Below, piece after piece: positions 362 through 26,015 of a DNA stretch of 55,038 nt. Origin of the DNA: Bacteroides sp. (lineage in GTDB: Bacteria > Bacteroidota > Bacteroidia > Bacteroidales > Muribaculaceae); assembly GCA_014801955.1 (NCBI GenBank), contig JAAVDE010000021.1, positions 1 through 55,038 of the forward strand. Direction: 5' to 3'. How positions within the stretch are numbered: the stretch's first letter is position 1; each line of letters starts with the position of its first letter. The notes beneath the pieces are model-generated. The model saw only the letters and a list, made by a program, of their open reading frames with translations. It was not told where the DNA came from and searched no databases. The position numbers and the translations under genes are program-made.

Positions 362-495
362 CAACAATAATTAGAAATGAGCAAATAGTAATTAGTAATT
401 TTGTTTAATTAGCAATTAGAAATTAGGAATTAGGAATATTTCGTCTAAGTCCGTGGAGCGTAGGCCTGGGGGTTGTGTTTAACTGTGATGCGAAG
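362..495. other. gene-free A+T-rich spacer
   Basis: About 130 nt with no usable reading frame. It contains repeated short words of the type AATTAG/AATTAGGAAT (about 370-437), a low-complexity pattern often seen between Bacteroidales genes. Nothing else is recognised here. Confidence 0.5.
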
Positions 496-581
496 CTGGG
501 AGCGAGGGCGTCTCGCCCTCGGCTGCGTCGCGAAGCCCCACATTGGCCGCAGATGCGAGGGCGAGACGCCCTCACTCCCAG
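496..581. repeat. nested G+C-rich inverted repeat
   Basis: Two 25-nt arms (496-520 and 557-581) are reverse complements with a single mismatch. Each arm contains its own palindrome, GAGGGCG-TCT-CGCCCTC. The ~36-nt centre has no coding content. The element stands between the RNA candidate and the 3' end of the nuclease gene and could act as a two-way terminator. Its design (palindrome within palindrome) also resembles REP/BIME-type dispersed repeats. Confidence 0.7.
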
Positions 582-21328: not shown

Positions 21329-21336
21329 TAACTTTG
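21329..21336 (+). promoter_or_regulatory. -7 box TAACTTTG for bioB
   Basis: Plus-strand element. It rules out the in-frame codons at its own position as starts and favours the ATG at 21376. Confidence 0.72.
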
Positions 21337-22417: not shown

Positions 22418-22490
22418 CGGGGTGTAGCACAGTTGGCAGCGCGCCACGTTCGGGACGTGGAGGTCGGAAGTTCGAGTCTTCTCACCCCGA
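22418..22490 (+). tRNA. tRNA-Pro (anticodon CGG)
   Basis: 73 nt. Acceptor CGGGGTG (22418-22424) pairs with CACCCCG (22483-22489), discriminator A at 22490. The anticodon stem CCACG/CGTGG encloses TTCGGGA, anticodon CGG at 22451-22453. The T arm is GGAAG-TTCGAGT-CTTCT. CCA is not encoded (ACA follows), so it is added after transcription. The D stem has an A-C opposition. Confidence 0.95.
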
Positions 22491-22502
22491 CAAAGACTCA
22501 GC

Positions 22503-22538
22503 AAAATGGGTGTAACTCAACCGGTTACACCCATTTTT
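22503..22538 (+). terminator. Rho-independent terminator after tRNA-Pro
   Basis: A perfect stem, AAATGGGTGTAAC with GTTACACCCATTT, around a 7-nt loop and followed by a T run. It starts 12 nt after the tRNA. Confidence 0.85.
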
Positions 22539-22840
22539 CCAAATCAGCCGGAACAAAAACGGAACCCGCCGTTTTCCCGGGTCTATGTAAAATACACGTT
22601 TGAATTGTTAAATTTTTTCATCGGGAATAATATTTTCAAGAGCACGGTTTCAATTGCTGAAAAAGATAAGGTTGGCATACAATTTAGGCGCTATTCATGG
22701 CAAGAAACTCGCACCTAAGGCCGAAAAAATCGCCGTTAAAGCCCGGTTTTATGAAAAATAGCCCCGAAGCGCTTTGCCACCGCTTGTACAACTCCCCGGC
22801 TTTCGCTAACTTCGCCATGAAAAAAAACTAACCGATTCAT
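22539..22840. other. gene-free stretch before the RavA-like gene
   Basis: About 300 nt, A+T richer than its surroundings. Frames here are short and show no recognisable protein. A TAACTTCG word (22807-22814), one base off the -7 consensus and preceded by TTTCGC, is the best promoter for the AAA+ gene. Nothing else is recognised. Confidence 0.5.
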
Positions 22841-22867
22841 ATGAACAAATCTGAATTATGGAAATGA
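22841..22867 (+). CDS. possible 8-codon leader ORF (MNKSELWK)
   Basis: ATG at 22841 opens an 8-codon frame whose TGA (22865-22867) overlaps the ATG at 22864 of the following gene as ATGA. The main gene has two candidate starts, 22858 and 22864; the overlap fits translational coupling to 22864. No typical Shine-Dalgarno word is visible. It may be chance. Confidence 0.3.
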   Translation: MNKSELWK

Positions 22868-24681
22868 GTCCTGAAGAGAAATGGAATGAATGTTGCCGCC
22901 TTTTGAGCGAAAAGCTTTCACGCCAAGAGTTCGACCACTGGTTCAGGCCAATCCGATTTCATTCTTATAATGAGACCTCGTTGAGCCTGAATGTTCCTTC
23001 AGCTGAATTCCGGGCGCAACTCGAAGCGACCTATCTGCCACTGCTCGCAAACGTGCTGCGAAGTGTTTTCGGCCCGGATGTGAAACTCTTTTACGAATAT
23101 AGCACCAATAAGCATAAGAAGTTATCACCCAGGAAGCATATAGCGAGCTTGATAAAGTGGATGTCGCAGGGAGTGTATGAAAAGGAGCAGATTATTGCTA
23201 TGGCATTGCTTTGTGCGGTTGCAGGCGAGAATATGTTTCTGCTCGGCCCTCCCGGAACGGCCAAAAGTATGGTTGCGAGCCGCTTGAAAATGGTGTTCCG
23301 CGGCGGCAAATCGTTTGATTATCTGATGTCGCGGTTCAGCACTCCCGATGAAATTTTCGGGCCGATATCGATTTCCAGACTAAAGAACGAGGATCGCTAT
23401 GAACGCCTGACTGCAGGTTATCTGCCGGAGGCCGACGTTGTTTTTCTGGATGAAATTTGGAAAGCCGGGCCATCGATTCAAAATACTCTGCTGACAGTCA
23501 TTAATGAACATATCTTTCATAACGGAGGGCAGGTGGTCCGCACTCCGCTGAAGGTGCTTATAGCAGCATCAAATGAGTTGCCGGCCAAGGATGAAGGGCT
23601 GGAAGCTCTGTGGGACCGTTTTCTTGTGAGGATGGTTTCAAACTGCATCGAGAGCGACGCTGCGTTTTTCAAAATGATTAAAGGAGCCGATGTTGCGATG
23701 TCGGAACTGCCGGAGCAACAATCCATCACCGACGAAGTGTACAGTCGGTGGCAACAGGAATCTAAAACCGTTGATATTCAGGAGTCCGTAGTCTGCGCCA
23801 TCAAAGCCCTTCGCAAAAGTCTTGCAGAATTGGAGAAAGAAGATGGCCATCAACTCCGCTATTATATATCGGACCGCCGCTGGCGCAAGGCATACCGGCT
23901 GATGCAGACCTCGGCTTATCTTAACGGACGCAATGAGATTAACCTGACGGACTACCTTCTGCTGATACATAGTTTCTGGAATGATGTGGAATGTATTCCT
24001 AACGTTCTGAATGCGTTTACTTCAAGTATCTCGGATTCCATATTGAAGGAACTGGCAAAAATCGACAAGTCCATACGCAGGCTTATGACTCCTCAAAAGC
24101 CAATGAGTCAACAGGAGGTTGCTCCGCGGATGAGCTCTGATAGTGTTGATTTCGCAGAGTTCGACTATTTTTATTACCTCATTGAGAATTATCCGGGAGG
24201 TGACACTTATTTTTCTAAATGGGATTATGCCGCGCTGTCAAATCAGACATGCGACGGCGTGCAATATTTCGAACACAAACTGAAAAAGAATATCATCCAC
24301 ACACTCATTCCCGGCAGACCCTTTGTTGCATCAACACAAAATTCGGGAAAACTAACGAAAGTCAAGATACAGAAGTGCCGGAACGGCGCGCTAATTAACG
24401 GAACGCCATATGCTTTCAAACGCAAAAACAGTCAGGTATCAGGTAGCTATGCCTCAACGCCGGAGTCGTCGGTCAACCAACGGGTGGCAATGATTCAGAA
24501 GCAGTTAAAGGCAGCAACCGACGAGTGGCAAACGAGCGTCGCAGCTATTTGGGCGGATAATGACAATCTTTTCCTGTCGGCCAACGACCTTGCGCTTATC
24601 AACAAAATGTTGAACTATGTCAACGAACAGATTAAAACCATTGATGTAAAGCTCAATAATATAATCACGATGGTAAAATGA
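22858..24681 (+). CDS. RavA/MoxR-type AAA+ ATPase with N-terminal DnaA domain I-like region
   Basis: 607 aa (605 if the ATG at 22864 is used). Residues 5-82 look like DnaA domain I: W-x-x-C-x-x-x-L at the start, then LSRQEFDHWFRPI, SLSLNVPSAEFRAQLEATYLPLL and LRSVFGPDVKLFYE. Residues about 90-400 are a RavA-type MoxR ATPase: Walker A GPPGTAKS (130-137), Walker B VVFLDEIW (194-201), sensor LIAASNELP (234-242), and LWDRFLVR (251-258) with an Arg finger. DRRWRKAYRLMQTSAYLNGR fits the lid. The last 200 residues do not resemble a known domain to me, though the end looks coiled. It overlaps the VWA gene by 4 nt, the RavA-ViaA arrangement. RavA-ViaA acts as a chaperone-like pair at the membrane in E. 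coli; the DnaA-like head is not part of that protein. Codon use is more A+T rich than the flanks. Confidence 0.85.
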   Translation: MEMSPEEKWNECCRLLSEKLSRQEFDHWFRPIRFHSYNETSLSLNVPSAEFRAQLEATYLPLLANVLRSVFGPDVKLFYEYSTNKHKKLSPRKHIASLIKWMSQGVYEKEQIIAMALLCAVAGENMFLLGPPGTAKSMVASRLKMVFRGGKSFDYLMSRFSTPDEIFGPISISRLKNEDRYERLTAGYLPEADVVFLDEIWKAGPSIQNTLLTVINEHIFHNGGQVVRTPLKVLIAASNELPAKDEGLEALWDRFLVRMVSNCIESDAAFFKMIKGADVAMSELPEQQSITDEVYSRWQQESKTVDIQESVVCAIKALRKSLAELEKEDGHQLRYYISDRRWRKAYRLMQTSAYLNGRNEINLTDYLLLIHSFWNDVECIPNVLNAFTSSISDSILKELAKIDKSIRRLMTPQKPMSQQEVAPRMSSDSVDFAEFDYFYYLIENYPGGDTYFSKWDYAALSNQTCDGVQYFEHKLKKNIIHTLIPGRPFVASTQNSGKLTKVKIQKCRNGALINGTPYAFKRKNSQVSGSYASTPESSVNQRVAMIQKQLKAATDEWQTSVAAIWADNDNLFLSANDLALINKMLNYVNEQIKTIDVKLNNIITMVK

Positions 24682-26015
24682 TTGATTATAGCGACGTTGA
24701 CGCAAAACTGGAAGAATATAGCAACGCTTTCGACGCGTATATGGAACGAGGCGAGATGCCTCAGTCGATTGATCCGGGCGACTGTCTTGCCCGTTATTTG
24801 CAGACCGTCATTGACAATAATCCCCAGGTCGACGGTTCCGACCCTCTATGGGTTGAGGTGATGAAAGAAGACCTGATCGCCTTCTTTGCAATCTTGCTGG
24901 AACAATTCAGGGCGCTCCAACTCGAGGCCATGAAGGAGCTGGGACTGATTGAGCGGTTCAAGACAGCTCCAATTGAGGAAAAGCGAATGCTCTGGCAAGA
25001 AGTGTCTGACACGATTGAGTCGCAATATTCCAAGTATGAAGTTAATCTTTCGGGATATTCGGCTCAGTTTCAGACCCACGACAAAGAGGCAGTATTCTCC
25101 GCACTGACGAGCGATTGGGAAAACGCATGTCGGCGAAAGCTTGACCAAAAGGAACACATGGTTCTGGACCGCTCCAAACTGCGGTTTGAACAAATCTGTC
25201 AGGACTCGGGAACTAAAGATTATGAAGACCGAAAGAAGCTAAACAAATACATCTACCGCCACCCGCAATTGAAGGAGATTGTTGATCTGATCGGTCGCGA
25301 AAAAGATCCGTCGAAAGAAGAAAAAGACACGGTTATTTACCGCTTCATGCCAACTTCCGTTGCTAAAAATAGTTCAGTTGAAGAACTCGACAGAGTGGAA
25401 TCGGGCAACAATCTGGAGCGGGTCCTGCCGGTTGAGTTGTCAATGCCTGAAGATTTGTTTTTCAAGAGATATGCAACGAAGGAGCTGCAACAATTTTCCG
25501 GCCCGGGCAAAGATAAGCCGAAAAAGATTAAAGAGCAACGCAAGGACCCGCGTCTGACAAAAGGTCCTATCATCGTTGCAATAGACACCAGCGACTCCAT
25601 GTTGGGACAACCGCAGAAAATAGCCTTCTCACTCCTGAAACAGCTGCTCGGCATGGCCAAGAAGCAGAAGCGTTCCTGCTTTCTAATCACCTTCTCTGTC
25701 AGATCGAAGTCCATTGACCTGGCTAAACCGCGAAACTGGGGTAAGGTCGACAAGTTTCTGGAGCAGAGCTTCTGTGGCGGCACGGACGGAGAGCAAATGT
25801 TGGCCGAGTCAATCCGGGTTCTGCAGCAGGGCACTTACGAGATGGCCGACGTCCTCATAATATCAGACTTCCTATTCCCTGTGCCCGCGAAAGAAACGCA
25901 AGATAAAATTGACACGGAGAAAGCTCTCGGTACTCGCTTCTACGGCCTTAGAATCGGCCAATACGGCTCGAAAGAGTATGAGAGCAAAATCCTGGATAAA
26001 ATGTGGACTATATGA
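24678..26015 (+). CDS. ViaA-like VWA domain protein
   Basis: 445 aa. The N-terminal ~280 residues are helical and poorly conserved, with charged segments (KKIKEQRKDPR just before the VWA). The VWA domain (about 297-440) starts IIVAIDTSDSMLG with the full MIDAS motif D303-T-S-D-S307. Thr and Asp of the site follow in SFCGGTDGEQML and VLIISDFLFP. This is the partner of MoxR/RavA ATPases. Its start overlaps the ATPase stop (ATGA). It ends 4 nt before the convergent imelysin-like gene. Confidence 0.9.
   Translation: MIDYSDVDAKLEEYSNAFDAYMERGEMPQSIDPGDCLARYLQTVIDNNPQVDGSDPLWVEVMKEDLIAFFAILLEQFRALQLEAMKELGLIERFKTAPIEEKRMLWQEVSDTIESQYSKYEVNLSGYSAQFQTHDKEAVFSALTSDWENACRRKLDQKEHMVLDRSKLRFEQICQDSGTKDYEDRKKLNKYIYRHPQLKEIVDLIGREKDPSKEEKDTVIYRFMPTSVAKNSSVEELDRVESGNNLERVLPVELSMPEDLFFKRYATKELQQFSGPGKDKPKKIKEQRKDPRLTKGPIIVAIDTSDSMLGQPQKIAFSLLKQLLGMAKKQKRSCFLITFSVRSKSIDLAKPRNWGKVDKFLEQSFCGGTDGEQMLAESIRVLQQGTYEMADVLIISDFLFPVPAKETQDKIDTEKALGTRFYGLRIGQYGSKEYESKILDKMWTI

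Follow-up and report, generated by a model that had tools for sequence, protein, structure and literature searches.

To our knowledge, RavA-ViaA-type pairs, in which a MoxR-type AAA+ ATPase is encoded beside a von Willebrand factor A (VWA) protein, occur in many bacteria, and how they choose their substrates is poorly understood. Pairs of MoxR and vWA proteins have also been presented as cores of conflict systems, in the parts of PMC7159879 used here, and the main text of that paper does not contain the word DnaA. Herein, we analyzed a stretch of 55,038 nucleotides (nt) from a Bacteroides sp. genome of the family Muribaculaceae (assembly GCA_014801955.1, contig JAAVDE010000021.1), termed the window; the genome is termed G000. 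The window encodes a RavA-ViaA-type pair whose ATPase begins with a domain I of the replication initiator DnaA, hereafter the head.

The pair resembles RavA-ViaA of E. coli in that its AAA+ core is about 47% identical to RavA, a VWA gene follows the ATPase gene, and the ATPase is modelled with helical arms and a beta-rich insert. In contrast to the E. coli proteins, the window ATPase carries 84 additional residues of DnaA domain I in front, both proteins stay below the NCBIfam equivalog cut-offs, and the arm/LARA region is almost without sequence match; nothing points to LdcI or to respiratory partners. The head shares with DnaA domain I (PF11638) the fold, all eight invariant columns, and an origin within the DnaA clade of the genus, but it precedes a MoxR ATPase where DnaA has domains II-IV, and it lacks an equivalent of E. 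coli F46. With the MoxR-vWA ternary conflict systems, the locus has the MoxR and vWA pair in common and passes the bpMoxR model, whereas it has neither a beta-propeller on the partner nor a recognized third component nearby and does not qualify as a member. The headless RavA-like relatives of the same family have ATPases 43-75% identical to that of the window (14 rows of alignment A4; 65-75% for the eight closest). These proteins start with a short leader, often MAKK, and a ViaA-like gene is adjacent in most of the fetched loci.

A DnaA domain I on a RavA-like ATPase

The identity of the head was supported by sequence and by fold. PF11638 (DnaA_N) matched residues 7-68 of the full-length protein with 45.2 bits, and restricting the scan to residues 1-96 raised the score to 48.1 bits (cut-off 24.6). 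A phmmer search with residues 1-84 retrieved 4tps (E 1.2e-7), 8btg (1.5e-6), and 2e0g (0.0021), of which we take the first two to be B. subtilis and the last E. coli DnaA domain I. Modelled by AlphaFold from a 35-row alignment (the head and 34 relatives), the head had a predicted local distance difference test score (pLDDT) of 87.9 and a predicted TM-score (pTM) of 0.69, with helices at residues 5-19, 22-28, and 49-70 and strands at 33-38, 41-46, and 76-81. When the model was compared with the PDB by Foldseek, ranks 1-5 were all DnaA domain I (4tps, 2wp0, 2e0g; query TM-score 0.69-0.79) and were the sole matches with E≤0.001, followed at ranks 6-8 by the helicase loader DciA, a DnaB loader, with E 0.0098 or worse. 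The segment is a DnaA domain I, as the initial annotation had proposed from its motif layout; the motifs are present, and one of them had been written a residue short (L-x-V-P-S-x2-F, not L-x-V-P-S-x-F). The DnaA initiator model TIGR00362 reached 32.8 bits over residues 9-89 only, far from its cut-off of 343.9, and the ATPase as a whole is not a DnaA.

Behind the head follow a RavA-like MoxR AAA+ module and, in the model, helical arms with the beta-rich insert. The core matched bpMoxR (185.6 bits), AAA_5 (92.3 bits), and AAA_lid_8 (73.5 bits), and it carries what we take to be a Walker A (GPPGTAKS), a Walker B (VVFLDE), and a sensor-2 region (SDRRWRK). The closest solved structures to the body were the E. 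coli RavA chains 3nbx and 6q7l (E 2e-85). Module, lid, and nearest structures place the protein among the RavA-like MoxR AAA+ ATPases, and the earlier call of a MoxR/RavA core with its catalytic motifs was borne out. The RavA equivalog NF010054 gave 349.5 bits at residues 93-392, below its cut-off of 681, and the protein is not a member of that family. In the full-length AlphaFold model (pLDDT 79.4, pTM 0.62), the AAA+ module extends to about residue 371 and is followed by long helices and the insert, which occupies the place of the E. coli LARA domain, where the sequence match to E. coli RavA is 1.5 bits. The modelled chain follows the RavA plan, with domain names after the parts of PMC6987120 used here. 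A weak linker at about residues 83-90 of the model separates the head from the AAA+ module as a unit of its own, and the junction lacks the ATG that the headless relatives (MAKK...) use.

The partner matched the ViaA model NF008230 with 137.7 bits over residues 180-444 (cut-off 500), again outside the equivalog. In Pfam only weak VWA models matched it, and a beta-propeller was not found. Its metal-ion-dependent adhesion site (MIDAS) reads DTSDS at residue 303, GGT at 367, and ISD at 395; this fits the pattern DxSxS...T...D as printed in the part of PMC11090510 used here, and the site is intact, as had been annotated. The annotated 4-nt gene overlap was also confirmed in coordinates and frame (ATGA at 24678-24681). 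The partner was the only ViaA relative in G000 at E≤1e-5. Judged by sequence, the ATPase is RavA-like and the partner ViaA-like, and neither belongs to the curated equivalog families.

Table 1. Features of the headed pair and its upstream region in the window; G523 is a sister species of the same genus
Feature	Position	Strand	Evidence and remarks
tRNA-Pro(CGG)	22418..22491	+	G523 homology ends right behind it (22494)
Perfect 14-bp inverted repeat, terminator-like	22503..22537	.	Repeat search; behind the tRNA
TAACTTCGC, -7-like element	22807..22815	+	Ends 42 nt before the ATG, outside the shared cassette
Cassette	22846..26015	+	blastn to the G523 locus, 85%, ungapped; mismatch profile
ATPase open reading frame	22858..24681	+	Single open frame, ATG start, 607 amino acids; Pfam/NCBIfam, AlphaFold, G523 orthologue
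Head, residues 1-84	22858..23109	+	PF11638; PDB 4tps/2e0g by sequence; AlphaFold and Foldseek; nesting in DnaA clade
Glu50 codon, position of E. coli DnaA Phe46	23005..23007	+	Alignment to 2e0g_A and 4tps_B; column counts
Linker, residues 85-90	23110..23127	+	Short; low model confidence (pLDDT ~55 for block 81-90)
AAA+ module with lid, residues 91-371	23128..23970	+	AAA_5, bpMoxR, AAA_lid_8; RavA chains; invariant columns of alignment A4
Arm region: helices 377-410, 539-565, 575-606; beta-rich insert ~439-520	23986..24678	+	AlphaFold secondary structure
ViaA-like VWA partner, 445 amino acids	24678..26015	+	NF008230, weak VWA_CoxE; start overlaps ATPase stop

Rarity and origin of the head

A second headed ATPase was found in the sister species G523, with the same length of 607 amino acids and 88% identity; frame and length of the gene are kept between the two species. 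Within the genus, 2 of 11 genomes (G000 and G523) carried it. The family search matched 72 of 397 genomes at E≤1e-15, many of the matches being DnaA proteins hit through the head alone, and a match over residues 1-607 was obtained in G000 and G523 only. At the order level, 15 of 393 genomes matched at E≤1e-20, with the window ATPase alone matching over residues 1-607, and the 14 matching genomes among 395 of the phylum added no further headed ATPase. The DNA upstream of RavA/MoxR-like loci was also scanned with a profile from alignment A3. The head was present in 1 of 64 other loci, that of G523; the 64 remained after 3 of 67 loci with <300 nt upstream had been set aside and second RavA copies without a locus left out, and some are distant MoxR relatives (25-40% identity). 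The possibility that the head is merely the usual N-terminal linker of RavA was therefore rejected, 63 of the 64 loci being without it, and the claim that other RavA-like proteins lack such a head agrees with this count.

A scan of the 84,980 species genomes of GTDB r220 with the head gave one relative, contig CAMWSP010000059.1 of an uncultured Porphyromonadaceae metagenome-assembled genome (Bacteroidales), which equals G523 C59 in length and in the place of the match; the scan used two short peptide patterns, which reach close relatives only, and may omit the window's own record. In viral stretches, 69 matched the head patterns and none encoded a relative, and the 10 RavA relatives in viral contigs all matched from query residue 90 or later, the head not being among them. 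Viral carriage of the headed ATPase was rejected, no viral relative with the head having been found in these contigs. Among plasmid and phage records, the best 30 of 93 and the best 20 of 24 matches all began at residue 81 or later. A search of the open-access full-text literature, a scope outside which most subscription papers lie, returned no report of such a fusion. The fusion is real, rare, and made within the lineage, and it modifies the RavA-ViaA pair in two species.

DnaA_N matches were also counted per genome across the phylum: 17 of 345 genomes, G000 included, had two, and 5 had none. The 16 others with two (for example, G788, G930, and G966; families f148 and f154 account for 13) may hold a second DnaA or another fusion.

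To trace the donor, a tree of 84 columns was built from both heads together with domain I of 33 DnaA proteins. The heads were nested in a clade (support 99/98) that contains every one of the 8 DnaA proteins sampled from the genus, grouped with the DnaA of G000 and G523 (98/96), and lay nearest to G000 DnaA with weak support (88/79). Since the heads nest inside the genus clade, the donor was most likely a dnaA of this lineage. The window head is identical to G000 DnaA at 47 of 84 positions, shares its MEM start and a DVKLFY near the end, and is 56% identical to the DnaA of either species. Its stem branch is long (0.88), its branch point lies near the G000/G523 split, and its GC content at third codon positions (GC3) is 0.52, like the cassette, compared with 0.73 for dnaA; on these grounds a recent copy of the genome's own dnaA was rejected. 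Judged by their ATPase cores, the two headed proteins constitute a separate clade (100/100).

Both heads retain all 8 columns that do not vary among the 33 DnaA proteins. The 8 DnaA proteins of the genus share 24 invariant positions, of which both heads keep 16 and lose 8. The ratio of non-synonymous to synonymous rates (dN/dS; Nei-Gojobori, G000 versus G523) was 0.26 for the head, 0.044 for the AAA+ core, 0.23 for the tail, and 0.10 for ViaA. The head dS was unusually low (0.14, versus 0.56-0.80). Over its first 522 nt (22846-23367 versus L049:6131-6652), the cassette is 93.5% identical between the species, compared with 83.4% for the remainder. The 5' part thus looks recently exchanged, which weakens the dN/dS estimate for the head.

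Genomic surroundings and headless relatives

The G523 similarity around the pair spans 3170 nt, beginning 12 nt ahead of the ATG and ending at the ViaA stop, with nothing else local; two other blastn matches to the G523 locus are dispersed repeats of 31-36 nt at window positions 407-525. The pair lies behind tRNA-Pro in the window and behind another gene, Y, in G523, where it overlaps the 3' end of Y. Gene Y was found in 4 of 297 family genomes, one of which is G523. In another, G467, Y (78.5% DNA identity) has other genes behind it and no headed pair. Because the G467-G523 homology ends at L049:6140, 10 nt inside the cassette (start 6131), the cassette was probably inserted at the end of Y in G523. 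Gene Y as a fixed partner of the cassette was rejected on this distribution, and a severed Y operon as the source of the window pair was likewise dropped. An uncharacterized module (L049:3379-6174, L169, and L170), with genes of 328, 325, and 271 amino acids in G523, had no Pfam, NCBIfam, or PADLOC match. The 271-residue gene occurs in 4 of 297 family genomes and adjoins apparent relatives of the other two in G656.

The cassette genes have a GC content of 0.47-0.49 and a GC3 of 0.52-0.58, below the eight other window genes (0.54-0.63 and 0.67-0.76), and the pair is A+T richer than its neighbors as annotated; such values also occur elsewhere, the first 2 kb of the window being at 0.44-0.45. Since the shared DNA is limited to the pair, the loci differ, and GC is low, the data support movement of the pair as a bare cassette, in line with the annotated hint of transfer. 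The bioB-tRNA-Pro stretch of G523 (L091:5838 onward) is followed by different cargo, namely an IetA-like AAA+ gene, a gene of 203 amino acids, and one of 500 amino acids on the minus strand, and the site behind bioB-tRNA-Pro is likely a cargo hotspot. The tRNA as an attachment site was rejected, no second copy of its 3' end being present in the window; no search aimed at integrases was made.

Two direct repeats flank the pair, one of 20 nt (90%; 22390 and 27144, with a promoter-like word) and one of 17 nt (94%; 22606 and 27055); they may reflect chance or promoter words. The window holds 11 copies of the word TAACTTYGC (0.80 expected), for example at 21329, 22398, 22807, and 27152, several of them just upstream of genes, and we take this word, with TAACTTCGC, to be probably the -7 promoter element of Bacteroidota. 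Promoter and terminator scans stayed near the shuffled means. The gene after the partner encodes an imelysin-domain protein on the other strand, and beside the window pair there was no annotated effector or recognizable third component. PADLOC gave no good match, with two weak RtcR AAA cross-matches to the ATPase (21.4 and 13.7 bits) and none to the partner.

Around the headless relatives, 19 loci with flanks of unequal length contained an RtcB cluster 7 times, WYL 9 times, RNase T-type 7 times, and FtsZ-like 7 times, cluster families being assigned from single members; a GmrSD gene and a PLD gene were also near headless relatives. Such surroundings fit conflict or RNA-repair cassettes, whereas neither headed locus carries these RtcB, WYL, RNase T, or FtsZ-like clusters in the stretch seen. 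G000 itself has a second, headless RavA on C11 (L066, 8004 bases), which is 88% identical over residues 89-253 and runs off the end of the contig. Its neighbors in an operon-like row are an FtsZ-like gene (partial, weak TIGR00065), an RNase T exonuclease, a WYL regulator, and an RtcB ligase. This second RavA groups with the other headless proteins (95/89), apart from the headed core clade. At L064 (G644 C2), a headless RavA-ViaA pair next to an RtcB-cluster gene is split into several open pieces and apparently decayed.

The partner-binding edge and the possible role of the head

According to the parts of PMC5448010 used here, E. coli DnaA binds DnaB through E21 and F46 on helices 2 and 3 and DiaA through E21, W25, N44, F46, and W50, W27, N47, F49, and A50 of B. 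subtilis DnaA matter for SirA, and domain I pairs with itself through helix 1 with W6. The docking aromatic (E. coli F46/B. subtilis F49), at head position 50, is Phe in 25 and Tyr in 8 of the 33 DnaA proteins, and it is Glu in both heads. Position 24 (E. coli E21) is Gln in 26 of 33 DnaA proteins and Glu in the heads, a Trp stands at the E. coli W25 position, and residues 28, 48, 51, 54, and 58 of the window head match the host DnaA. Columns at least 70% conserved in DnaA and changed in both heads are 13, 18, 19, 23, 24, 50, and 53. Within residues 16-28 and 49-53, the DnaA proteins of the two species agree at 16 of 18 positions, of which each head keeps 5; elsewhere the heads keep 37 (window) and 35 (G523) of 47 shared DnaA positions (Fisher p 0.001 and 0.003, values that are optimistic, as these segments were picked after seeing the data). 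Helix 1 (5-15) of the window head is identical to G000 DnaA at 9 of 11 positions, and both heads have the self-pairing letters W9 and C12 (E. coli W6 and C9). The head has kept its fold and helix-1 face, with the partner edge largely rewritten.

We tentatively favor, as the best reading, a re-targeted adaptor head on a RavA-ViaA-type remodelling machine. The fusion itself, the sources of head and body, the occupancy of different loci, the intact motifs, and the changed hot-spot residue stand as results. The ATPase would assemble into a MoxR-type hexamer and, together with the VWA protein, remodel the substrates it binds; its six flexibly tethered, DnaA-derived heads would serve as an adaptor array delivering the machine to a target. 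The DnaA fold and the helix-1 self-pairing face would be retained, with the end of helix 1, helix 2, and the start of helix 3 rewritten. As this edge, the one that binds DnaB-, DiaA-, or SirA-type partners, is much rewritten, the head probably no longer competes with DnaA for them. Its ligand might instead be DnaA, through contact between the two domains I, or a new one.

Several points weigh against this adaptor reading. Adaptor function, like the hexamer, self-pairing, and the target, is what we infer, and the edge segments were chosen post hoc. Among the published hot-spot positions (n=7), the window head departs from the host DnaA at only two (24 and 50) and the G523 head at three. W9 and C12 may have been retained for the fold alone, and a 2026 paper states, in the part used here, that the E. 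coli domain I dimer, if any, is unlike the Actinomycetes one (PMC13270200). The loss of 8 of the 24 genus-invariant positions could be explained by relaxed constraint, which the head dN/dS, drawn from 7 synonymous and 7 non-synonymous changes, counters weakly. The head tree is based on 84 columns, and the fusion is known from two genomes, both drafts of 84-85% completeness. Both species also have GTG codons in frame at residues 66 and 75, which leave room for an internal start and a headless product.

In an account that builds on the initial annotation, the head works as in DnaA and recruits the machine to the replicative helicase, its loader, or DiaA-type regulators, and the pair acts on replication initiation or forks. 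A true domain I from the lineage's own dnaA, the Trp and Glu present at the W25 and E21 positions, and the DciA fold at Foldseek ranks 6-8 speak for it. Because the F46 equivalent is Glu in both heads, against Phe or Tyr in 33 of 33 DnaA proteins, and the partner edge is mostly rewritten (5 of 16 agreed positions kept; 18, 19, 23, 24, 50, and 53 changed in both heads), plain recruitment of the DnaB/DiaA type is not supported, and we consider this account unlikely. Action at a replication protein, which had also been proposed, is possible, W9 and C12 being kept. The head could also be an integrated decoy that mimics the host DnaA domain I, such that a phage or plasmid protein directed against DnaA would bind the head and set off a MoxR-VWA defence alarm. 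The defence-like surroundings of headless relatives (RtcB at 7 of 19 loci; GmrSD and PLD) point in this direction, as do the conflict-system role of MoxR-vWA pairs, the local, fast-evolving origin of the head, and the prophage protein YfdR, which binds E. coli DnaA domain I (PMC4776307, used in part). However, YfdR also needs F46, the residue the heads have lost, PADLOC found no good match for either protein, and no annotated effector adjoins the window pair, so that this explanation, too, seems rather improbable.

A neutral or structural fusion, in which the head adds bulk or self-association without a specific ligand, would suit its dN/dS above that of the AAA+ core, its long stem branch, the lost genus-invariant positions, and its restriction to two species; yet the frame is open and of equal length, the 8 invariant columns are intact in both species, and the changes are concentrated at the binding edge (in segments chosen post hoc), which makes it a distinctly unlikely account. 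An assembly chimera or a wrong start might be suspected of two draft genomes, one of them metagenome-assembled. The same 607-residue fusion nevertheless appears in the assemblies of two species at 85% DNA identity, its frame runs uninterrupted through the junction in both, and the head is far from identical to either DnaA; an artefact is highly improbable, and refuted unless reads contradict both assemblies. The adaptor reading can also be taken a step further: the six heads of a hexameric ring, each a captured host domain I with a rewritten edge, would engage either DnaA or an invader protein that attacks DnaA, and would link the bound protein to ViaA-dependent remodelling. We regard this version as possible and somewhat doubtful.

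The fusion puts a domain of known origin, with known binding surfaces, on a RavA-type ATPase and thereby turns target selection into a defined question. If the adaptor reading is true, a head taken from the host initiator and altered at a hot spot would link a RavA-type machine to replication initiation; if the head is a decoy, the protein would be a bacterial case of an integrated decoy. Capture of the head to engage DnaA or its attacker, if true, would connect a RavA-type conflict machine directly with the initiation of chromosome replication.

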